Positions 11,559 through 24,418 of a stretch of 26,149 nt of DNA are shown piece by piece. This DNA is from a virus. Numbering within the stretch: the stretch's first letter is position 1; every line of letters starts with the position of its first letter. Under the pieces are notes generated by a model. It was not told the DNA's origin. It was given only the letters and a program-made list of their open reading frames with translations, and ran no database searches. Where the stretch lies: IMG/VR virus record IMGVR_UViG_3300031276_000011, positions 1 to 26,149 of that record. One strand, 5' to 3'. A program made the translations under genes and the position numbers.

Positions 11559-12485
11559 TTACACCGTTACCGCAGCATCAGATATAGACCAAAGACGAGA
11601 GGCAGCTTTCCCGTGAAAAATTGCCATTCCGCTATACCATTCAACTCTAGTTCTCATTGCTGGTTTTGTTTCAAGTTCACCAAGATCTCGGACGTCTATT
11701 CCACCGTTTTCAAGACCAGTAAGCATTCCATCACCAAAACTAACGCAATAGATTGAAGTAGCTGTTGCTGTACCAGAAGTAGCTGCTTCAGTAAAAGGTA
11801 GGATCTGGTTCCCTGCGTTATCTTCATCAACGATAAGAATAGGAATATCGTTGTATCTTGTAACAGTACGTCCAAATGAATCAAGAGTATAAGTTACATA
11901 ACCACCAACAGTAGATAACCTAGCTGCAGCAGAAAGTCTACGCCTCATAGCTTTATTCATTAATAAATATTGAGGATCTTGAACAGAGTCAATTAACTCA
12001 TCAAGTTTTGCTAATGATAAAGGAGTACCATTTGGAGTTGCACCAGCAGCAATTAGTTGATCTCCAGTTATACGAACCTGTAAACCATCAAATTCTCGTG
12101 GTTCAGACGCTTGATCTCCTTTTATAAATTTTAAAGTCCAGTTCAATGCAAGTGCTTTAATCTTCATTGCTTCCTGAACACTTCTTTGATCATCCCCCAT
12201 AGTATCAAGGATGAATTTATCCACATCGAGATCTCCACCAGCAATTACTAGCGGTTCTACAATTGGATTTAAAATACCTGTACTTTCGCTGAACGCTTCG
12301 TTTACACCCCTAAATCCAATACCGGGTAACGTTTGTTCACGATTATACTTATATGCATTACCATTTATGTTCTGAAATGGTAATACACTTAATATGTCAG
12401 AACTTCTGGCATATATTTCAATTATAGCCGAACGAATAACATCGCCCGAATGAAGTTTCGACGCTTCTACTAATGTTAATGACAT
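11559..12485 (-). CDS. Major capsid protein (HK97 fold, GP7-like)
   Basis: A 308-aa protein downstream of the scaffold gene. The N-terminal region (LVEASKLHSGDVIRSAIIEI), then LPFQNINGNAYKYNRE and FRGVNEAFSES, match the GP7-like major capsid family: a helix, 'lPF', the 'YNRE..LP' strand and the E-loop-like 'vNE'. The C-terminal half has the typical P-domain pattern (FGRTVTRYNDIPILIVDEDN; GDGMLTGLENGGIDVRDLGE) and ends RLWSISDAAVTV. It forms the icosahedral shell. SD AGGAGG precedes ATG 12485. Confidence 0.85.
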   Translation of the reverse strand: MSLTLVEASKLHSGDVIRSAIIEIYARSSDILSVLPFQNINGNAYKYNREQTLPGIGFRGVNEAFSESTGILNPIVEPLVIAGGDLDVDKFILDTMGDDQRSVQEAMKIKALALNWTLKFIKGDQASEPREFDGLQVRITGDQLIAAGATPNGTPLSLAKLDELIDSVQDPQYLLMNKAMRRRLSAAARLSTVGGYVTYTLDSFGRTVTRYNDIPILIVDEDNAGNQILPFTEAATSGTATATSIYCVSFGDGMLTGLENGGIDVRDLGELETKPAMRTRVEWYSGMAIFHGKAASRLWSISDAAVTV

Positions 12486-14995: not shown

Positions 14996-17089
14996 TTAAT
15001 AACATTCTTCATAACGTTGAAATTTAAAATGAGGTTGTCTAAAATATTCTATTCCCATTTGAACTGCATCGGGGAAATCATCATTCCCGTAAACAGGATA
15101 AAATACTATTTGATTCATTGCTTCGGGGTATCTATCTACGTAGTCATCCATAAATCTTGTATGTCCTGAATATAATTCTGGTTGAATTGATATTATCCTC
15201 TCATGTTTATTCGTGTTCGAGCCATGATGGACAGTTTCTATGTTAACATGCCAATTTATATTTGCGTGGGCCTTAATTAAAGCGTCTTCTAATAAAAACG
15301 CATTGTTATCTTCGAATAACATAGTTCTACATCCATATGATTTATTAACTGCAGCTATCCTATGCACCATTAATGTTATCTCTATTTTCTCATCAATAGC
15401 ATCAATAAATGTCATTTCATCTTCATAATTGTGTATCCACCAAACAGCAGGATAATCATTACTTGTTTTCCCTTTACTCGGATCGAATACACATAATAAT
15501 TGACCTCTTGTAAGATCAACTTGTTCCATTCTAACAAAAGTAAGTTTCTTCAGATCAAAAGTTTGCATACCTTCTGCTAGAGGGTTATTTACATACTGAC
15601 AATTTTTAGATGCATATCCCCAAACAACATAATTCCCTGTTGTTGTTTGCATTGAATAAACTATTTCATTCCCATCTGGTTCGATCTTAACTACTTTATC
15701 AAACATCCCTCCAAGCCATCTACAATTAAGTAAATCATCAAACGATTGCGTATAATGACAATCAATAACTCTAAGTAAATCCCTTCCTACTTTAGCTGGA
15801 GTGTATGTCTGATAACTATCTTTATTTAATCTTCCATTATACCATTTATGATCAGGAGTACATCTTATAACACGACCACTTTCTAAAGTAACTTTTACAA
15901 CATCTGCTTTTCTGCTTCTTATTTGTAATACTTCCGTAACTGCTAATTTAGATTTATTTTTTAACCCTTCACCATGAGTAAATCCAATTATTTTATCTCC
16001 GATCTTCATATCTTTTATTTGCTTAGTAGTAAAATCACTCATTAATACTGGAGCTTCACCTGGGTTACAGCTGAAAAATATATCTGAAATGCCTACCTTT
16101 ATTCCCGCAATCTTTTCATCTGTCATGAATTCAGGATAATTTGTCTTGCCATCTTTATTGTAAATTGACTCGACTTCTATATCCCATTTTAAATTAGCCG
16201 GTAATTTTTTATTTGTTTCAAAAATATGATGGCATAAGTCCTTCATATGCCATCGAGTACCGATATAAAATATTGTCTCAAAAACAATATTATCTCTCGT
16301 AGAGAAAAATGGAACTAATAATGGTGACAAACTATCAAACCATCGTACTTTCTGGTCCCTAGTTGCCTGACTATCTCGATCATTTTGATCGAGAGCATCG
16401 TCGGAGATAATAACGTTGGGATGAATACCTACTGTACTACCACCAGCAGTCCTTAAGATTAAAGAAAATCCTTTTCCCGATCTACCATCTATATTAAATA
16501 CATCAGATGTATTTTTTGCTTTTTCGTCCTTATTAATATTAAAAATTAACGAGTAAAGAGTATCACCCTTTGATGAACCTAAAAATCTATCTATTGAATC
16601 CGATACCTCGTTTAATAATAATGCATTAGCAGATGTATAAAAAATACGAATCTGTGTGTCCATACATCCCCATAACCAAAGAATAAGTCCTATACCATAC
16701 ATTGTGGATTTAAAAGTACCCCTCGGCTTAAGTCTCATAATACGTTTTTTATTATTCTTTATAGCAGCCTGTAAATCATCAGCCCACCTTTTATGAGTTT
16801 GTTCTGTCAATAAATCGAATTTAAGCACATACTTAGCGAAAAAGAAAAAATCATTGATACACCGTTCAACAACAATTGCAGATAATGTATCACGACTCGT
16901 TTGATCTAAAGTCTTTCCTTCATCTTCAAGGTCTTTCTCTAAAAGAATTAATGCTTTTGTGGCTCTATCAGATTTTATTGCTTTCTCAGGATCAATCCCC
17001 TGGGCTATTCGTTCCTTTTTCTCCTCCCATCGTTTTTTCCTGTTCGTTTTCTGCTCTTCCGTCAACGTCAAATATTCTGAAATCTCCAT
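14996..17089 (-). CDS. terL: Terminase large subunit precursor with in-frame intein
   Basis: A 697-aa precursor, ATP-driven DNA packaging motor and nuclease. The ATPase part has a Walker A-like KPRGTFKST (121-129), a Walker B-like NVIISDDALD (225-234) and the coupling motif region FYIGTRWHMKDL (274-285). The RNase H-like nuclease begins at LLCVFDPSKG (D536), with LFEDNNAFLLEDAL (591-604) and DDFPDAVQMGI (670-680) carrying the other acidic residues. Between the two domains an intein (C341-N496) interrupts FFS/CQYVNNP. Removing 156 residues gives a 541-aa enzyme, a normal TerL length. The start overlaps TerS by 98 nt and has an AGAAGG SD. Confidence 0.9.
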   Translation of the reverse strand: MEISEYLTLTEEQKTNRKKRWEEKKERIAQGIDPEKAIKSDRATKALILLEKDLEDEGKTLDQTSRDTLSAIVVERCINDFFFFAKYVLKFDLLTEQTHKRWADDLQAAIKNNKKRIMRLKPRGTFKSTMYGIGLILWLWGCMDTQIRIFYTSANALLLNEVSDSIDRFLGSSKGDTLYSLIFNINKDEKAKNTSDVFNIDGRSGKGFSLILRTAGGSTVGIHPNVIISDDALDQNDRDSQATRDQKVRWFDSLSPLLVPFFSTRDNIVFETIFYIGTRWHMKDLCHHIFETNKKLPANLKWDIEVESIYNKDGKTNYPEFMTDEKIAGIKVGISDIFFSCNPGEAPVLMSDFTTKQIKDMKIGDKIIGFTHGEGLKNKSKLAVTEVLQIRSRKADVVKVTLESGRVIRCTPDHKWYNGRLNKDSYQTYTPAKVGRDLLRVIDCHYTQSFDDLLNCRWLGGMFDKVVKIEPDGNEIVYSMQTTTGNYVVWGYASKNCQYVNNPLAEGMQTFDLKKLTFVRMEQVDLTRGQLLCVFDPSKGKTSNDYPAVWWIHNYEDEMTFIDAIDEKIEITLMVHRIAAVNKSYGCRTMLFEDNNAFLLEDALIKAHANINWHVNIETVHHGSNTNKHERIISIQPELYSGHTRFMDDYVDRYPEAMNQIVFYPVYGNDDFPDAVQMGIEYFRQPHFKFQRYEECY
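15602..16069 (-). other. Mini-intein within TerL (156 aa)
   Basis: Residues 341-496 of the precursor have Hint-domain features. Block A: Cys1, then VLMSDFTTKQIKDMKIGDKI. Block B: GRVIRCTPDHKW, with the TxxH motif at T411/H414. Blocks F/G: EIVYSMQTTTGNYVVWGYAS, then K495, N496 and the +1 residue C497. The flanking exteins (FFS and CQYVNNP) form a continuous terminase motif. No LAGLIDADG or HNH homing-endonuclease region is present, so it should splice but not move by itself. The penultimate residue is Lys instead of the usual His. Confidence 0.85.
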
Positions 17090-17447: not shown

Positions 17448-17460
17448 TTATTAACTCGCT

Positions 17461-17494
17461 TTTATACAATATGTTTATAAACATATTGTATAAA
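17461..17494. promoter_or_regulatory. 34-bp perfect palindrome (putative operator)
   Basis: Positions 17461-17477 are the exact reverse complement of 17478-17494; each half reads TTTATACAATATGTTTA. It covers the -10 box and start region of the predicted structural promoter. One arm is continued by a tandem 13-bp repeat (ATAAACATATTGT at 17477-17489 and 17490-17502, then a partial copy). The shape suits a dimeric repressor or activator and would block or position RNA polymerase. It is AT-rich with no T tail, so it is unlikely to be a terminator. Confidence 0.7.
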
Positions 17495-17513
17495 CATATT
17501 GTATAAATGTCAA
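17485..17513 (-). promoter_or_regulatory. Sigma70-type promoter of the structural operon
   Basis: On the minus strand, TTGACA (17513-17508) is a perfect -35, followed by a 17-nt spacer and TACAAT (17490-17485) as a five-of-six -10. The predicted start is near 17478, about 30 nt before the TerS ATG. It follows directly after the terminator of the upstream operon and overlaps the palindrome. Confidence 0.7.
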
Positions 17514-17516
17514 CAA

Positions 17517-17543
17517 GAAAAAGCCCGACAAAATCATCGGGCT
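17517..17543 (-). terminator. Intrinsic terminator of the glycan cassette
   Basis: Minus-strand stem AGCCCGA (17543-17537) / TCGGGCT (17528-17522), loop of 8 nt (TGATTTTG), followed by a T run (17521-17517, TTTTTCTTG). It begins about 30 nt after the stop of the oxidoreductase gene and just before the structural promoter, so it separates the two operons. Confidence 0.85.
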
Positions 17544-17574: not shown

Positions 17575-18399
17575 CTATTTAAATAAATTTTCTATAATTT
17601 TAACTATTTTAATTGAAATAAGATTATTAGACTCTATCTCTCCATTAATAATCTTTACAAAATTATTAATGGAGAAAAATAAATTATTCTTTTCGTCAAA
17701 TTTTTTTCTAATTTTTAAGACTCCCATTTGATAAACTTTAACGGGATACTGATTATTGTAATCATAAATTAATTTCCCCCTTGTTCCCTTAATAACAAAT
17801 AGTTTATCTTTATACCCGCTATCTATGCTAACATAAAGTGAACCAAATATTTTTCCGAAATATTTTATCAATCCTGTTCTTGTGATTTTATTCTTATCTA
17901 ATTTTACATTGATAAATTTTAATTCTTTTAAATCGACAAATAAGGATAACATCGATAACTGATGACAACTTAACTGCCAAAAAACATGTTGATCCGTAAA
18001 TCTACCATGTTGTCTTGTAAACCCATTTATTTCGAAAATCTTACCTACACGATCAACCATTTTTACCATTTCTAATCGAGAAGGTGCAGTCATTTCCGTG
18101 TAATCAGTATACAACTTTACATTATATTTTTTAGATAAGTTGTATAACTTCAAAGCTTTTTTATAAGAAGTCGCAAGAGGTTTCTCACAAAAAACATGTT
18201 TACCTTGTTTAATACATTTTTTAACTATATGGTAATGAGTCTCTATTGGAGTAGCGATAAAAAATACATCTATGTCTTTAGCTATTTTTTTTATATCAGA
18301 ATCTTTTCTCCCTGTTATAGAAACCAAGTTAAATTTTTCTTTGATGTATGGAATTAATATCTTACCCCAATATCCACATCCAATTAAAGCTGCTCTCAT
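17575..18399 (-). CDS. Gfo/Idh/MocA-type NAD(P)-dependent oxidoreductase
   Basis: A 274-aa enzyme from the ATG at 18399; the GTG at 18417 would add six residues but would begin inside the previous gene. The N-terminal Rossmann fold shows ALIGCGYWGK (GxGxxG), then VFFIATPIETHYHIVKKCI and GKHVFCEKPLA, with the EKP motif (72-74) that holds cofactor and catalytic Lys. The later HVFWQLSCHQLSML region fits the substrate domain. Family members oxidise or reduce sugars, often UDP-sugars in O-antigen pathways. It is shorter than the usual 330 or so residues. The ATGA overlap with the upstream methyltransferase suggests coupled translation. Confidence 0.75.
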   Translation of the reverse strand: MRAALIGCGYWGKILIPYIKEKFNLVSITGRKDSDIKKIAKDIDVFFIATPIETHYHIVKKCIKQGKHVFCEKPLATSYKKALKLYNLSKKYNVKLYTDYTEMTAPSRLEMVKMVDRVGKIFEINGFTRQHGRFTDQHVFWQLSCHQLSMLSLFVDLKELKFINVKLDKNKITRTGLIKYFGKIFGSLYVSIDSGYKDKLFVIKGTRGKLIYDYNNQYPVKVYQMGVLKIRKKFDEKNNLFFSINNFVKIINGEIESNNLISIKIVKIIENLFK

Positions 18400-18947
18400 T
18401 TTATAATACCCCACCACATATTTGGTAGATTATTGTGACCTTCTGTCTTATCCATGACATTATCTTTAATCATCTTCTTAACTGATCCCCACCCCCAATC
18501 ATGGAAAACTACAATACCACCTTTTCTCATTAGAGAATAATACAAAGACCAATCTTGACCAACTCCTTTCACAGTATGATCTCCATCAACAAAAAGAAAA
18601 TCTATTTTAATATCAACATTTACAAAATAACGATATGCATTATAACTGTAATCTACAATAGGCTTAATATCTTTCTTATACTTTTTCGTGTTCTCCTTAA
18701 AATTTTCAAACAAAGTTAAAGAATTATTAGGATCTGGCCTCATCTTAACATCAGACAACCAAATATCAATACAATATAAAATATCACTTTCGCTCAATGC
18801 AGAAGCAATAGCAATAGATGACGCACCCATATATGATCCTATCTCTACACAAACATCACTCTTATTCTTCTTAACAAGTTCATGTAATGTTTCAAGCTCC
18901 TTTTTCGTTACACAAGTACTTATGCCTTCTATTTCATTCAAATACAT
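18396..18947 (-). CDS. Class I SAM methyltransferase (Methyltransf_24 type)
   Basis: A 183-aa protein. The start is placed at ATG 18947, preceded by GTGAGGG; the ATG at 18974 has no SD. Motif I is VEIGSYMGASSIA (about 34-46), and the metal/catalytic-site motif is FLFVDGDHTVKG (about 117-128), followed by LMRKGGIVVFHDW. This family (CmcI-like and sugar or hydroxyl O-methyltransferases) often sits in polysaccharide loci. It overlaps the radical SAM gene by 14 nt and ends in ATGA with the oxidoreductase. The substrate is not apparent; a sugar is inferred from the neighbours. Confidence 0.75.
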   Translation of the reverse strand: MYLNEIEGISTCVTKKELETLHELVKKNKSDVCVEIGSYMGASSIAIASALSESDILYCIDIWLSDVKMRPDPNNSLTLFENFKENTKKYKKDIKPIVDYSYNAYRYFVNVDIKIDFLFVDGDHTVKGVGQDWSLYYSLMRKGGIVVFHDWGWGSVKKMIKDNVMDKTEGHNNLPNMWWGIIK

Positions 18948-20082
18948 TGTTACCCTCACCATTAAAATATTCATTTATTTCTAATGCCATTCTATTCCCA
19001 CGCAATCCATGCTTAAAACAATCACTTTTACACTTAACAGGATTATTTTGTATCTCCCAACATTGATCTTTAAAAACACTTAATTCTGATGATACGACAC
19101 CTCTTCTAAGATGTTTTGCTGTGGGTGCTGCGACAGCAGAACATGGATAAACATATCCATCTGCACCTAACGTTATTTGGAAAAACCCATAATAACAAGT
19201 ATCAAAATTAAACCTATCTATATCAGTATAATATGAATCATTATAAAATATATATGGATGGCAGCTTTTGTCTTTTGACACTAAATGTTTTGTATTGTTT
19301 TTTACTATTTCAGAAAGCATATTTTCAGTATTTTTCTTATATTCTCTTACTGAATCAAAATGTTTATTATAATAATCATAAGGTATAGAAAATCTAAGAG
19401 AATCTATTCCACACATTTTTGCAAAAGAAGTAATAAACTCAAATTCACTAAGATCACATGTTACTTCTGAAACCAAATAAACAACTCTAATCGCATGACT
19501 TTCTTTGTTAGATTTATCCCTGATATTTGTCATCTTTTCAATTGCAGATAATATTTTCCAGAAATTATCTGCAGGGCTTTTCTTTAACGATGACCACGAC
19601 TTGCCTGAACCAGCATCAAGACTTATAGAAATATAGTCAGTTTTATCAGTACTTATGTCGTGCACATTAGTTAGAAATCTTTGTTTTTCTTCAAGATCAA
19701 GAAGATATGTGCCATTCGTATGTAACCCAAAATGATTCCCAAACTTTTTTACTATATCAAGATAAGGAAAAAGATATGGATTAGCAGTCGGTTCTGTATA
19801 CGCTCCACCAAAAATAGAATATGGTATTTTTCCTTTTAAGTTTTCAAGAAGTTTTAAACCTTCAGATTCCCATTTCCCTAATGATTTTTTGTATAGCGTA
19901 GAAAAACAATGTTCACATCCTAAATTACATGTAATGTTCCTGTCTGACGGAAGATGTATCTCTAATTGTTTTGGATATATAAATGGTTTGTCCTTACCTG
20001 GAATAAAAATCTTTTCTGTGTTTTTCATATATTTATTTAATTGTTTTAAATATTGATATTCAAGTATCCTTTTATCTTCCAT
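18934..20082 (-). CDS. Radical SAM enzyme with SPASM-like C-terminus
   Basis: A 382-aa protein. CNLGCEHC (C52, C56, C59) is the CxxxCxxC that holds the 4Fe-4S cluster which cleaves SAM. FGGAYTEP (91-98) is GGE-like, HTNGT (121-125) and ISLDAG (153-158) are typical barrel motifs. The C-terminus has five more Cys (C296, C314, C341, C351, C355) with GADGYVYPC, as in SPASM-type auxiliary clusters. It begins right after the glycosyltransferase stop (TAAATG). Such enzymes do radical modifications of peptides, sugars or metabolites. Rare in phage structural regions; substrate unknown. Confidence 0.8.
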   Translation of the reverse strand: MEDKRILEYQYLKQLNKYMKNTEKIFIPGKDKPFIYPKQLEIHLPSDRNITCNLGCEHCFSTLYKKSLGKWESEGLKLLENLKGKIPYSIFGGAYTEPTANPYLFPYLDIVKKFGNHFGLHTNGTYLLDLEEKQRFLTNVHDISTDKTDYISISLDAGSGKSWSSLKKSPADNFWKILSAIEKMTNIRDKSNKESHAIRVVYLVSEVTCDLSEFEFITSFAKMCGIDSLRFSIPYDYYNKHFDSVREYKKNTENMLSEIVKNNTKHLVSKDKSCHPYIFYNDSYYTDIDRFNFDTCYYGFFQITLGADGYVYPCSAVAAPTAKHLRRGVVSSELSVFKDQCWEIQNNPVKCKSDCFKHGLRGNRMALEINEYFNGEGNNVFE

Positions 20083-20940
20083 TTATTTTATTTCCATCAA
20101 TTCAGGATTTATTGGATCGTAAATAAGTTTCTTACTCTTTTTATTATTTATATTCTCTTCTTTATCCATGTTAGATGGCCATATCCTTTCATTTATTATT
20201 CTATTCCAAGAATTTTCAAAAAATAACGGATCTGCTTTTATTCGGTCCATTCTCCAATCATTGAATTTATTTGCTTGTTTAATATTTTTGTCTATAAATT
20301 GTTTTTTTGATCTATATTGAAAATGTGCATAATATGCTATATCTGGATCTATCAAAATTTGCTTCATATGTAAGCTAATTTGTCCATATTTCATATCAGC
20401 AATATGATGTAATCCCTGAACATAATACATATTTTTATTGAACTTCCCAATTGATTTAGTCCATTCCATATAATTATTTCTACATTGCATTTCTAAATAA
20501 AATGGAAGACTTAATTCATCTTTTTGAGAATAATAGTTTGTCCATCTAAATAACAAGGATACAAATTTATATTGATCATACTGTTTTATAAAATCATAAA
20601 TATTATTATGTTTCCTTAAAATTAAAAACTCATCAGCATCGGTCCCCACTATCCATTTAAATCCATCATCTTGTGCTGCATCAGTCAATACCTTTAAGTA
20701 ATCACCATTAATCGGATTCAGTCCAAGACCTTCTTTATCGTGACGTAATAAATTGAACGTAGCATCAGATAATTTAGTTTTAACAGAATCTAATATACTT
20801 AGTAACAATTCACTAGGAAGATGTAACATAATATAAAAATTTCTGATACCGATATTATAATAATATATAATATTATTTTCTATAATATCTGTATCATCTC
20901 TAAGTTTTAAGATTAATGCTATTTTTATTTTTTCATGCAT
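20083..20940 (-). CDS. GT-A glycosyltransferase (family 2/Glyco_tranf_2_4-like)
   Basis: A 285-aa protein with the nucleotide-sugar/metal motif WIVGTDADEFL, D101-A-D103-E104. It begins KIALILKLRDDTDIIENNI, typical of the sub-family that starts with a conserved 'l..kn E...i..wl..h...G...', and continues YYNIGIRNFYIML. A second conserved region is YVQGLHHIADM. The family transfers a sugar from a nucleotide donor. It overlaps the methyltransferase end by 16 nt. Not membrane-bound. Confidence 0.75.
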   Translation of the reverse strand: MHEKIKIALILKLRDDTDIIENNIIYYYNIGIRNFYIMLHLPSELLLSILDSVKTKLSDATFNLLRHDKEGLGLNPINGDYLKVLTDAAQDDGFKWIVGTDADEFLILRKHNNIYDFIKQYDQYKFVSLLFRWTNYYSQKDELSLPFYLEMQCRNNYMEWTKSIGKFNKNMYYVQGLHHIADMKYGQISLHMKQILIDPDIAYYAHFQYRSKKQFIDKNIKQANKFNDWRMDRIKADPLFFENSWNRIINERIWPSNMDKEENINNKKSKKLIYDPINPELMEIK

Positions 20941-21512
20941 ACGATAGTGTGTCCATTACCTACTTTATCATCAGTTTCATGTTTTTCTATAATTTCCCAA
21001 TCAATTAGTTTTTGTATATTGCACCATTCTATAATATCAATCATTAATTGTAAAGTAAATATCCAAATATGACAATAGTCATCTGTGAGTGGTAAGGGGT
21101 GTTTATACTGTTCTATAAATGATTCTAATATTGAAACAGGTTTATCCTTATCTTTAGGATCAGCATCTCTTTTAGGAAAAATCATAAAAATAACTCCATC
21201 TTTTTTTAAAGAACGATCCCACTCAATAAATGCTTTTATAGGATTCGGTACATGTTCTATAACGTGACTTGATAAAACATAGTCAATGCTGCTATCTTCT
21301 ATAGGTATATTTTCAGCATTACCAAATAAATCTATAACGGTTGGCTCTTCGCCCATAAGTCTTTGTGATTGATTCCAAAATTCAAGTTTTTCTTCTGGAG
21401 AAATCATGAGACAATCTTCAAGTCCGAAAGAGTTATGAGATGATGGGCCTAACTCGATACCTTTCCCTTTACAATATTTATGCGCTAATTCTGACTCTTT
21501 AAATTTCATCAT
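20925..21512 (-). CDS. Class I SAM methyltransferase (type 11-like)
   Basis: A 195-aa protein. Motif I is KGIELGPSSHN (17-27), motif IV-like is IDYVLSSHVIEHVPNP (76-91), then SLKKDGVIFMIFPKRD. This arrangement with 'IELG' and 'SSHVIEH' fits the type 11 methyltransferases that occur beside glycosyltransferases. An AAGGA SD precedes adjacent ATGs at 21512 and 21509. The downstream glycosyltransferase starts inside its last codons. A sugar, lipid or small metabolite substrate is possible. Confidence 0.75.
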   Translation of the reverse strand: MMKFKESELAHKYCKGKGIELGPSSHNSFGLEDCLMISPEEKLEFWNQSQRLMGEEPTVIDLFGNAENIPIEDSSIDYVLSSHVIEHVPNPIKAFIEWDRSLKKDGVIFMIFPKRDADPKDKDKPVSILESFIEQYKHPLPLTDDYCHIWIFTLQLMIDIIEWCNIQKLIDWEIIEKHETDDKVGNGHTIVCMKK

Positions 21513-21524
21513 GTTATTCCTTAT

Positions 21525-22538
21525 TTAAAAATTTTTATCCATTAAAGATTTTATAACTTCTATTCTTTTTTTATTGATAGTACTTAAAAGCAAATTTTCA
21601 GATATATATTCAAAAGATTCATCATAATTCCTGTCCCTAAATTTTCTATCTTTTAAGAGTTTCTCCAAATAATAACCAAAACTTTCTTTATTTTCATGAT
21701 TATAATTAATAATTCCTGGTTTATTAAATTCAGGTAGCCCAAGTGGAGCAATAGCTGCAGCCCCAGAAAAAGTAGCCTCTAGCCATGAACAATTAGACTT
21801 TGAAAGATTAAACTCATTAACTACAAGAGGAATAATCTGTACAGATGGGGTGAGTTTTCTTATATACGAATGGTAAGAAACAATATCCGTTTCAGGAAGA
21901 CTGAAGACACGTTTAATGTAATCAGTAATATACCACATGCTGTTATCCGCTCGACCACCAATAAAAACCCATGCCCATATTTCCTCATATTTTTTCGCTA
22001 TCTCAAATATTCTATCAGAACAAGATAGTAAGTCTGCCCGATGTGTATCTGACCCTCTCCAATATATTGTATTTGATTTTTCATTAATTTTTTTAAATGG
22101 GAAATTATAGTCGTTAAAAGAATTTTCTATAACTACAATGTTATCGTTTAAATGTTTAAAAGATTTTTTTAAAGCATCTGTTGCTACGGTGACTACATCT
22201 GCAGCTTTTATGCATTCCTTCATCATATCAAACACTTCTTTACCAGAGAAAAACTTATGGTTAGGATTATCTTTAGGAATAACGAATAAATTATCGTCGA
22301 TATCAACCCAAACAGGAATATTAAAATTTTTCGCTCTTTTCATTAAATCAAGATATACTTGAGTCTGTGGTCTTGCAAAAAGGATGATATCAGCATCAAT
22401 TAAAGCAGTCCAAGAAGTAACTTTCATATACTCAACCGATATTGAAGGATCTAATTTAGATAATTTTGACAATGGGCCTATACTTCTATAATAAGAACAT
22501 GCACTTTCTGGTGCTGCATCACAAATTTTAATCTTCAT
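21525..22538 (-). CDS. GT-B glycosyltransferase
   Basis: A 337-aa protein with two Rossmann-like halves. N-terminal half: KICDAAPESACSYYRSIGPL and VWVDIDDNLF (76-85), a pattern common in glycosyltransferases of polysaccharide clusters and phages. C-terminal half: IYWRGSDTHRADL (158-170), WVFIGG, and the donor-binding region FNLSKSNCSWLEATFSGAAA (243-262) followed by APLGLPEF. It is the second gene of the cassette, starting 10 nt after the zinc-ribbon gene stop, with a GGGG SD. It likely transfers a sugar from a nucleotide donor; acceptor unknown. Confidence 0.75.
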   Translation of the reverse strand: MKIKICDAAPESACSYYRSIGPLSKLSKLDPSISVEYMKVTSWTALIDADIILFARPQTQVYLDLMKRAKNFNIPVWVDIDDNLFVIPKDNPNHKFFSGKEVFDMMKECIKAADVVTVATDALKKSFKHLNDNIVVIENSFNDYNFPFKKINEKSNTIYWRGSDTHRADLLSCSDRIFEIAKKYEEIWAWVFIGGRADNSMWYITDYIKRVFSLPETDIVSYHSYIRKLTPSVQIIPLVVNEFNLSKSNCSWLEATFSGAAAIAPLGLPEFNKPGIINYNHENKESFGYYLEKLLKDRKFRDRNYDESFEYISENLLLSTINKKRIEVIKSLMDKNF

Positions 22539-22548
22539 GATATTTCCC

Positions 22549-22767
22549 CTACCTTATCAACGCGATATATGTCATACACTGAACAAACTCAAGTTGGCAA
22601 TAACATCCACAACTACAATCTTCTTCACGGGACTTAAGATTATGTATAATGCTAAATGTTATTTGATCCCCTGGTTTATAAATTTTACCGGTATTATCTG
22701 TTCTAGAGCTATATTCAACAATCCCTCCGCATTCAGGACATCTACACTGAATTACATTCTCTCCCAT
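22549..22767 (-). CDS. Small Cys-rich (zinc-ribbon-like) protein
   Basis: A 72-aa protein, first gene after the promoter at 22941-22914. Eight cysteines: C8, C10, C13 in QCRCPECGG, then C51, C53, C55, C57 in CSCGCYC, and C64. The first group with the spaced second group fits zinc-ribbon folds; length and charge suit a small nucleic-acid or protein binder. Its ATG has an SD (GAGAGG). The stop lies 10 nt before the glycosyltransferase start. Because it precedes a radical SAM and methyltransferases, a modified-peptide precursor role was considered but is less likely. Confidence 0.55.
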   Translation of the reverse strand: MGENVIQCRCPECGGIVEYSSRTDNTGKIYKPGDQITFSIIHNLKSREEDCSCGCYCQLEFVQCMTYIALIR

Positions 22768-22913: not shown

Positions 22914-22941
22914 AATATATATCCTAACTCTGATCAGTCAA
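22914..22941 (-). promoter_or_regulatory. Putative promoter of the glycan cassette
   Basis: Minus-strand TTGACT (22941-22936), 16-nt spacer, TATATT (22919-22914); each box differs from the sigma70 consensus at one position. It lies about 145 nt upstream of the first cassette ATG and just downstream of the mosaic scar. Not as strong as the structural promoter. Confidence 0.5.
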
Positions 22942-23199: not shown

Positions 23200-23460
23200 C
23201 TATTTTAAACTCTTTACTAACAGGTTCAAATCTTTCAAAGGAAGTGTTCTTAAGAAATCATAGCTGTTTTTATTAAAGGTATACATTAATTTTTCTTTTC
23301 CATCTTTTGATGTATTAGATATACCAGAATTAAAAGATCTCTCCAACCATTTAGCGTTCTGTTCAATATTTTTTAGACAAAATTTTTGATGTTCATTTAA
23401 TTTTTTATAATCAATTAGATTTGTCATTATTTCAATTTCTTTAATTATGTTTGTCAACAT
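23200..23460 (-). CDS. Small unknown protein
   Basis: An 86-aa ORF whose ATG (23460) overlaps the methyltransferase stop in an ATGTTGA arrangement. An alternative in-frame ATG at 23427 would give 75 aa (MTNLIDYKKLNEHQ). The protein is Lys/Asn/Leu-rich with a helix-like C-terminus (FLRTLPLKDLNLLVKSLK). No family recognised. The first 9 codons are repeated in the scar at 23137-23099. Confidence 0.5.
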   Translation of the reverse strand: MLTNIIKEIEIMTNLIDYKKLNEHQKFCLKNIEQNAKWLERSFNSGISNTSKDGKEKLMYTFNKNSYDFLRTLPLKDLNLLVKSLK

Positions 23461-23472
23461 TTATCCACCACC
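23434..23472. repeat. 39-bp direct repeat, copy 2
   Basis: Identical to 23099-23137; spans the junction of the methyltransferase gene end and the 86-aa gene start. This is the intact, coding copy. Confidence 0.8.
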
Positions 23473-24002
23473 GCAATTAAATTATTCATATGAGAATGAT
23501 ATACATGAAAACTACGGTACGTATATTTTTCACATTTGAGTGCATTTTTAATAGTTTCTTCTAATTTAACACGACCATAAACGACCTTATGATCATAACA
23601 ATTTGTCTGCCCATCGGGGACTGCAATTATTATGCGTTTTTTAGCTACTCCAAATAATCGTCTTATAAAAAAGATAGGTTCTTCATCGTGTTCTAAAACA
23701 TGCGATGATAGTACGATGTCATACATATCTTTAAGTGCACCGTCAAATTGAGGTCCTATCCATCCACAAAGTTTTCTATCATTCCAAAAATTTAAGCATT
23801 TTTGTTCAATATCCATAACCTCAACAAATATTTTAGGAAACACCGCACCAATTACACTTGCAGCAAGTCCGGTACCTGCACCAACATCGAGCAGCGATTC
23901 AGCACCGTCAACTTCACGGATCAATTTTAATATTTCATGCAGCAAATGCCATGCGTGATTGTGGTAGAACCATCCGTCTTCAAGGTGTTGTTGTTCTTTC
24001 AT
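23454..24002 (-). CDS. Class I SAM methyltransferase
   Basis: A 182-aa protein. Motif I LLDVGAGTGLAASV (37-50), acidic post-I EVMDIEQ (61-67) and the motif IV-like DIVLSSHVLEHDEEP (95-109), then RIIIAVPDG. This is the classic type 11/23 fold. A perfect SD (AAGGAGGAG) precedes ATG 24002, which overlaps the upstream stop in ATGA. It is in the accessory unit rather than the cassette operon, but may use a similar substrate. DNA methylation is not supported, because no DPPY/NPPY motif is seen. Confidence 0.75.
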   Translation of the reverse strand: MKEQQHLEDGWFYHNHAWHLLHEILKLIREVDGAESLLDVGAGTGLAASVIGAVFPKIFVEVMDIEQKCLNFWNDRKLCGWIGPQFDGALKDMYDIVLSSHVLEHDEEPIFFIRRLFGVAKKRIIIAVPDGQTNCYDHKVVYGRVKLEETIKNALKCEKYTYRSFHVYHSHMNNLIAVVDKC

Positions 24003-24418
24003 AACTCCTCCTTAAAATGTATCTCTCTACCTGCGTCAAAAACGCTTCCCATGTGATGCCATTTTTCAGGCAGTCGGTCTGCTTTGAATACAAATAATCC
24101 AGACTGGTTGCCGTGCATATTAAATCCACGAACCTCAACAATGTCTTTATCAAATTGTATTTTTTTTACTGCGTTTTCTATAGAGAATAAATTATGACCA
24201 ACTGAATTACACATGATCGAAACTATTATATCGTATTTTGTGTTAAGTGAATAATATGCATACCGTAACGCTTCAAGATACGTAAATTCATCATCAAAGT
24301 TTTTAGATTTTTCAATAATATATATTTCTTTATCAATACATTCATCTTTTATTTTTTCACAATCTGTAAACATATACACATTTTCAACACCGCAATTAAA
24401 TTTATAATTTTTATCCAT
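23999..24418 (-). CDS. Unknown protein, faint GT-A-like features
   Basis: A 139-aa protein coupled to the methyltransferase (ATGA). Its pattern includes ENVYMFTDCEKI near the start, DEFTYLEALRYAYYSLNTKY and DIIVSIMCNSVGHNLFSIEN, then FNMHGNQSGLFVFKADRL. The order, a helix plus strands ending at a short glycine-containing block, faintly resembles a reduced GT-A glycosyltransferase, but no DxD motif is visible. It may also be an unrelated small phage protein. Confidence 0.45.
   Translation of the reverse strand: MDKNYKFNCGVENVYMFTDCEKIKDECIDKEIYIIEKSKNFDDEFTYLEALRYAYYSLNTKYDIIVSIMCNSVGHNLFSIENAVKKIQFDKDIVEVRGFNMHGNQSGLFVFKADRLPEKWHHMGSVFDAGREIHFKEEL

Follow-up and report, generated by a model that had tools for sequence, protein, structure and literature searches.

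The 26,149-base virus record IMGVR_UViG_3300031276_000011, a fragment from an uncultivated bacterial virus and called the window here, carries a compact operon of seven open reading frames (ORFs) running from 22767 down to 17575, on the minus strand like all the genes of interest. From upstream to downstream, small ORFs (26139-23200) are followed by the operon, terS, terL, the portal, scaffold and major head protein genes and then the tail genes, which include one for a sheath-like protein. Two members of the operon, encoding a radical S-adenosylmethionine (SAM) enzyme and a sugar oxidoreductase of the Gfo/Idh/MocA family (hereafter Gfo/Idh), recur together in at least three other phages, and it is this pair that occupies most of what follows.

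The operon and its products

The first operon ORF encodes a 72-residue Cys-rich protein (22549..22767, from the ORF call; CxCPxC ... CSCGCYC) that has no Pfam match and weak PHROG and NCBIfam matches. After it comes a GT-B type glycosyltransferase of family GT4 (337 aa, 21525..22538; phrog_7162, E=1.9e-38), a full-length member whose residues 3-332 align to positions 3-308 of the 309 in phrog_7162. The next products are a class I SAM methyltransferase (Methyltransf_11, 195 aa, 20925..21512; PF08241, E=2.1e-11) and a GT2-like glycosyltransferase with a DADEF motif (285 aa, 20083..20940; PF13704, 37.8 bits against a cut-off of 27.5). The radical SAM enzyme, first half of the pair, has twitch/SPASM-like cysteines near its C-terminus (382 aa, 18934..20082; PF04055). 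A second SAM methyltransferase (Methyltransf_24, 183 aa from ATG 18947, 18396..18947; PF13578, E=2.7e-18) separates it from the second half, the NAD(P)-dependent Gfo/Idh oxidoreductase (274 aa, 17575..18399; PF01408, E=1.1e-16). PF04055, PF13704, PF08241, PF13578 and PF01408 each exceed their own Pfam cut-off, and profile (hidden Markov model) searches gave a clear family for six of the seven genes. The motifs named in an earlier, sequence-only reading of this DNA all lie in the genes to which it gave them: the radical SAM protein has CxxxCxxC at residue 52, and DADE (residue 101), EKP (78), IELG (19) and VEIGSYMG (43) stand in their respective products. None of the operon products shows a membrane span (the 19-residue Kyte-Doolittle peak never exceeds 1.33).

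Stop/start spacings of +10, +12, -16, 0, -14 and -4 nt bear out the tightly spaced seven-gene operon that had been described. They assume ATG 18947 as the start of the second methyltransferase and ATG 18399 as that of the oxidoreductase; in front of each, a G-rich stretch resembling a ribosome-binding site can be seen by eye. The longest-ORF starts, at 18974 and GTG 18417, are less likely. An intrinsic terminator closes the operon (17522..17543), with a 9-pair stem, a T-tail and a folding energy of -13.2 kcal/mol (z -3.9) that 0 of 200 shuffles equalled, so the terminator of the earlier reading is indeed a strong one. Its single promoter fared less well. The best candidate nearby, a sigma-70-like match (22914..22941; TTGACT-16-TATATT), is not distinguishable from chance, and one operon promoter is unproven because such sites are as frequent in the window (42) as in shuffles (40.7 +/- 7.0). 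The best promoter match of the region lies ahead of terS (TTGACA-17-TACAAT, 11/12, 17460-17513, minus strand), where it overlaps the repeated palindromic ATACAATATGTTTATAAACATATTGTAT and is likely a regulated late promoter.

Membership of the radical SAM superfamily is indicated by C52/C56/C59 and by PF04055 (30.3 bits, cut-off 29.5), with which a structure model and fold search agree. The description of this protein as radical SAM/SPASM-like holds for its first part and only partially for its second. As represented by PF13186, SPASM comprises CX9-15GX4C, then CX2CX5CX3C plus one further Cys; the window protein has the first half (C296-X12-G-X4-C314), after which its family retains C355 and one more Cys only (362 in relatives, 351 in the window), and PF13186 scores 14.8 bits, under the cut-off of 21.5. 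Assignment as a TIGR04317 tungsten-cofactor maturase (58.5 bits against an equivalog cut-off of 380) or as a viperin (20 bits against 180) was rejected. The oxidoreductase belongs to Gfo/Idh/MocA, with 62 bits to PF01408 (cut-off 24), a Rossmann GxGxxG and the EKP Lys.

A conserved gene pair in unrelated phages

An alignment-based scan seeded with the radical SAM proteins of two viral contigs, L143 and L125, found three further contigs of uncultivated phages (L194, L201 and L208) whose radical SAM orthologs are 39.6-41% identical to the window protein over nearly the whole chain. The Gfo/Idh/MocA genes downstream of them are 29-35% identical to the window's, and the pair keeps its strand and order in all three. 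One methyltransferase gene intervenes between the two in the window, and the L208 radical SAM gene is split over two frames. Across the four phages the oxidoreductases keep G13, G15, G18, the EKP Lys and H152. Among 29 radical SAM proteins placed in a tree, those of the pair form one clade with support of 100/99, represented by three full-length members because the split L208 gene was left out; outgroup placement is unsure because branches elsewhere in the tree are long. The four phages are unrelated in their virion genes, since no window structural protein has a match in the L194, L201 or L208 contigs and the G+C of these contigs ranges from 0.295 to 0.43. At the level of sequence, the radical SAM and Gfo/Idh genes are conserved as a pair among unrelated phages.

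Every cassette with the pair also carries glycosyltransferases and methyltransferases. The window cassette stands ahead of terS. L194 reads terminase, portal, fused methyltransferase-GT2, radical SAM, Gfo/Idh, and L208 reads major head protein, glycosyltransferases, radical SAM, Gfo/Idh, GT2, methyltransferases; in L201, glycosyltransferases, a methyltransferase, radical SAM and Gfo/Idh precede head-morphogenesis genes. A 95.7-kb phage, G665, has a glycosyltransferase/radical SAM/methyltransferase/epimerase cluster within its head-tail operon, ahead of a 1466-aa tape-measure-like protein. Between these glycan genes and the tape-measure-like gene (L169 699-4632), B12-binding radical SAM-like, GT2, NAD epimerase and dCTP-deaminase-like proteins were recognised by eye. 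Upstream of the window operon, a further SAM methyltransferase gene (182 aa) overlaps an unassigned 139-aa ORF by 4 nt (23454-24418, minus strand) and possibly belongs to the operon's theme; L208 also encodes a relative of it.

No ortholog of the pair was found in 50,697 phage records, where the best match reached 24% over part of the protein and the window radical SAM protein itself had none. Among bacteria, 398 Pseudomonadota genomes held no radical SAM ortholog at E 1e-15 and 395 genomes of another phylum gave a best match of 2e-16 over part of the length only, empty searches that in some 790 sampled genomes do not prove absence. The window radical SAM protein as a single sequence likewise had no match in bacterial genomes. 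When it, the GT4 protein and the Methyltransf_11 protein were each used alone as a query against IMG/VR, the scans were also empty, as was a search with the motif CNLGCEHCF; relatives surfaced only through alignment-based scans, for which a mixed radical SAM alignment was rejected as too diverse a query.

Homologs of the GT4 protein at 25-30% identity occur in 134 phage records, the majority of them from coliphages of the phi92-like and phAPEC8-like groups. The cluster of four glycosyltransferases in these phages, some of them in the BASEL collection (PMC8594841), contains one full-length phrog_7162 homolog, 27-28% identical to the window protein over its whole length; in the regions viewed it adjoins replication genes and bears no radical SAM, Gfo/Idh or methyltransferase annotation. 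An alignment-based scan for the family gave 61 viral loci, 36 of them distinct. The relative in L108, at 37% identity, lies inside a virion operon between sheath and tube genes, that of L145 follows the portal gene, and those of L125 and L143 are near head and neck genes. A single-sequence structure model of the GT4 protein was unusable, with a predicted local distance difference test score (pLDDT) of 40.

An accessory insertion

Sister phages were defined by matches to the sheath, portal and head proteins. Sister contigs that share the sheath have no GT4 gene, no PF13704 gene and no radical SAM match over the cut-off, which led us to reject the operon as a trait of the phage lineage. Upstream of terS, two sisters (L002 and L003) have a phosphoesterase-like gene and small genes instead of the operon, and the 70.7-kb sister G005 has small ORFs; incomplete contigs may hide genes elsewhere, and the absence holds at the homologous site. 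Because phages with the same virion genes lack the operon at that site, it is an accessory insertion. Chimeric assembly is disfavoured by the agreement in codon usage between operon and structural genes (correlation of relative synonymous codon usage 0.97; G+C at third codon positions 0.207 and 0.209).

Several neighbouring features deserve mention. The major head protein (phrog_212; 11559-12485, minus strand) is ~57-80% identical in 43 viral contigs, most of which share no other window gene, and occurs in contigs of bacteria from several phyla; it is a widely swapped capsid gene. Assigning a host from its homology was rejected because the protein is shared among prophages of several phyla. 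A sister phage (L052/L074, IMGVR_UViG_2651869506_000001) has a sheath 49% identical to the window's and a ParA 44% identical to a Leptospira plasmid ParA, and the window sheath is 23% identical to that of Leptospira phages LE3/LE4; a spirochaete host for this phage group is possible. In another sister, G002 (L073 1-8500), many small genes between terL and the portal gene mark a second insertion hot spot near terL. Within TerL (14996-17089) the window encodes a mini-intein (15602-16069, minus strand; FFS|CNPGE...ASKN|CQYV) whose 156 aa leave no room for a homing endonuclease domain. The TerL of L003 has a longer intein at a different site (VDDP|CFAP...VAN|CDIND), and the site used in the window is free of any intein in L002 and L007.

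Fold and proposed chemistry

A model of the radical SAM protein built from 21 aligned sequences (pLDDT 80; predicted template modelling score 0.83) has DesII as its nearest solved fold (Foldseek rank 1, E 6e-11). DesII ranks first by VIA-align as well, and the two chains resemble one another throughout (Z 24.0, root-mean-square deviation 4.0, 350 residues aligned), with sequence identity of only 12-16%. DesII, from the TDP-desosamine pathway, turns TDP-4-amino-4,6-dideoxyglucose into a 3-keto sugar by deamination and also oxidises TDP-quinovose (PMC11434129). It is followed in rank by peptide maturases, MoaA and BlsE, the last of which takes cytosylglucuronic acid, itself a sugar nucleoside, as its substrate (PMC3715490). 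A sugar 3-ketoreductase of the Gfo/Idh/MocA family is one of the weaker PDB hits of the window oxidoreductase (3rbv, E 4.6e-6). A partnership of this kind has a precedent in AprD4/AprD3 of apramycin biosynthesis, where a radical SAM sugar enzyme works with an NADPH reductase (PMC5461906), the window reductase being instead of the Gfo/Idh/MocA family. DesII and AprD4/AprD3 serve bacterial antibiotic pathways and are not phage genes.

The DesII fold, the ketoreductase among the Gfo/Idh relatives and the AprD4/AprD3 precedent lead us to infer that an activated sugar is what the pair converts; the substrates, reaction order and acceptor given here are proposals. The radical SAM enzyme would abstract hydrogen from a nucleotide-activated sugar, and dehydrogenation, deamination or dehydration would leave a keto-sugar. 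With NAD(P)H, the Gfo/Idh enzyme would then reduce or epimerise the ketone, as in an AprD4/AprD3-type partnership, so that the product of the pair would be a deoxy- or epimerised sugar reached via a keto intermediate. The two transferases would attach this sugar and the methyltransferases would O-methylate it, the acceptor being a virion protein from the adjacent late genes and the outcome a glycosylated particle. That the cassette tailors a glycan is very probable, and that the two enzymes of the pair act on the same sugar is somewhat probable. The fuller proposal, in which an accessory cassette makes and attaches a tailored sugar with a virion protein as its most likely acceptor, is put forward tentatively.

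Discussion

The families present and the recurrence of the cassettes support a phage-borne pathway for tailoring a glycan or glyco-metabolite, as the sequence-only reading had it. That reading also offered two purposes, decoration of the virion and a change of surface glycan that blocks superinfection. Virion decoration stands as one option; the superinfection block finds no specific support, given operon products free of membrane spans and cassettes placed at head and packaging genes. As to the acceptor, we lean slightly, and without great assurance, towards a virion protein over the host envelope, with DNA the least likely. Four unrelated phages have the cassette among or next to their head/packaging genes, and G665 has a related cluster embedded in its head-tail operon; this recurrent position fits late expression better than a superinfection block, and the lack of membrane proteins also favours the virion. 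Excerpts of PMC11256854 and PMC13313380, citing Freeman 2023, describe phage glycosyltransferases that decorate capsid proteins of mycobacteriophages such as Che8 and Rita, and take a phage glycosyltransferase together with a methyltransferase as a sign of virion glycosylation. Hosts and proteins there are unrelated to ours, the glycosyltransferases of Maravista lie at the genome 3' end, and these excerpts do not mention radical SAM.

Several observations weigh against a virion acceptor or the chemistry behind it. Because short contigs tend to be identified as viral through their structural genes, adjacency to virion genes is partly a matter of ascertainment. The operon has its own terminator, and the 11/12 promoter match before terS is separate from it, which leaves co-transcription with the late genes only putative. 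At the 36 distinct GT4 loci the commonest neighbours are other glycosyltransferases, with some replication genes, and a preference of this family as a whole for structural neighbourhoods is unsupported. In favour of sugar tailoring, sugar or methyl genes were detected near related radical SAM genes at 15 of 43 other viral loci and at none of 43 controls (Fisher 1.4e-5), but this contrast is indicative only, since the controls are shorter stretches around major head genes and thus biased towards structural regions. Finally, DesII leads the peptide maturases SkfB (Z 21.7) and SuiB (Z 20.2) by a few Z units only.

The most serious alternative is that the cassette alters an O-antigen, capsule or other envelope glycan of the host, either to mask a receptor from superinfecting phages or to the benefit of a host in pseudolysogeny. 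This is the usual reading of capsular/lipopolysaccharide (LPS)-type clusters in cyanophages and jumbo phages (P-SSM2, S-SCSM1; PMC7824862, PMC9602691) and, in excerpts of PMC7029224, of the pelagimyophage host-recognition region. The capsular/LPS-type clusters likewise combine several glycosyltransferases with sugar-modifying and methylating enzymes and, like the window operon, are polymorphic between relatives. The window operon differs in having no genes for nucleoside diphosphate-sugar synthesis (dehydratase, nucleotidyltransferase) and the radical SAM-Gfo/Idh pair in their stead; the word 'radical' is absent from the main text of PMC7824862. Distant bacterial relatives of the radical SAM protein (~25% identity) also adjoin polysaccharide genes, namely those for dTDP-rhamnose, an epimerase and a DegT aminotransferase, and an operon with its own terminator, apart from the late promoter, would suit such a role. 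Known seroconversion cassettes of the GtrABC/Oac type, however, rely on an integral membrane flippase, transferase or acylase, whereas the window operon has no membrane protein, flippase, polymerase or ligase, and the conserved cassettes lie within or adjoining late structural modules. We consider tailoring of the host surface possible and rather doubtful.

It is unlikely that the operon yields a glyco-metabolite, whether diffusible or intracellular, or that it modifies a peptide, such as the 72-aa Cys-rich protein acting as a radical SAM substrate. Secondary-metabolite clusters have been proposed for jumbo cyanophages (PMC7824862), a small Cys-rich ORF does open the operon, and the radical SAM fold is close also to SkfB and SuiB. 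Yet the nearest fold is that of a sugar-nucleotide enzyme, the operon has no exporter, and among ORFs of at least 60 aa no small peptide ORF beside the pair is shared by L194, L201 and L208.

Phage DNA hypermodification can involve radical SAM enzymes and glycosyltransferases, and a modified base built in this way could shield phage DNA from restriction. Among the neighbours of GT4 relatives are one TET-associated glycosyltransferase match and three to phrog_842, a hydroxymethylcytosine-glucosyltransferase family, and the relatives in phi92-like phages adjoin primase and polymerase genes. Such a role is nonetheless very improbable: phi92-like phages, the nearest isolated carriers of this glycosyltransferase family, are exceptionally restriction-modification sensitive even though they carry a 'putative dTDP glycosylation machinery' (PMC8594841), an observation that weighs against the GT4 family as a glycosylator of DNA, the chemistry needs neither Gfo/Idh nor two small methyltransferases, and no hydroxymethylase or TET was seen in the window, though that is a 26-kb fragment. 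A search for Tet_JBP in nine records, either related or for comparison, matched nothing, and no positive control matched either.

The cassette is not new in kind, since phage glycan clusters are already known. The view that this is no standard phage module thus has to be divided: it fails for the glycosyltransferase/methyltransferase clusters, which are well known (PMC7824862, PMC9602691 and excerpts of PMC7029224), and stands for the conserved radical SAM-Gfo/Idh pair, which is the new feature and of which we found no description in the literature. A related account is that of the pelagimyophages, whose hypervariable, glycosyltransferase-rich host-recognition region holds radical SAM gene cassettes; in excerpts of that report (PMC7029224) the glycosyltransferases are mainly GT8 and the pair is not described. 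It is tempting to speculate that this undescribed, phage-specific pair marks a mobile cassette, found in unrelated tailed phages beside their head genes, that makes and puts a radical-derived, O-methylated sugar on the particle, and so the first radical SAM pathway of virion glycosylation, although we hold this stronger claim to be doubtful.

Phage-coded glycan pathways tend to be classed, untested, as 'LPS genes'. The two-gene signature, for which a chemistry is predicted and whose neighbours are conserved, provides a marker for such cassettes in environmental viruses, and it opens the question of particle versus host surface to direct test. Should the particle prove to be the target, phages would have here a means of altering their coat, with a bearing on particle stability and recognition.

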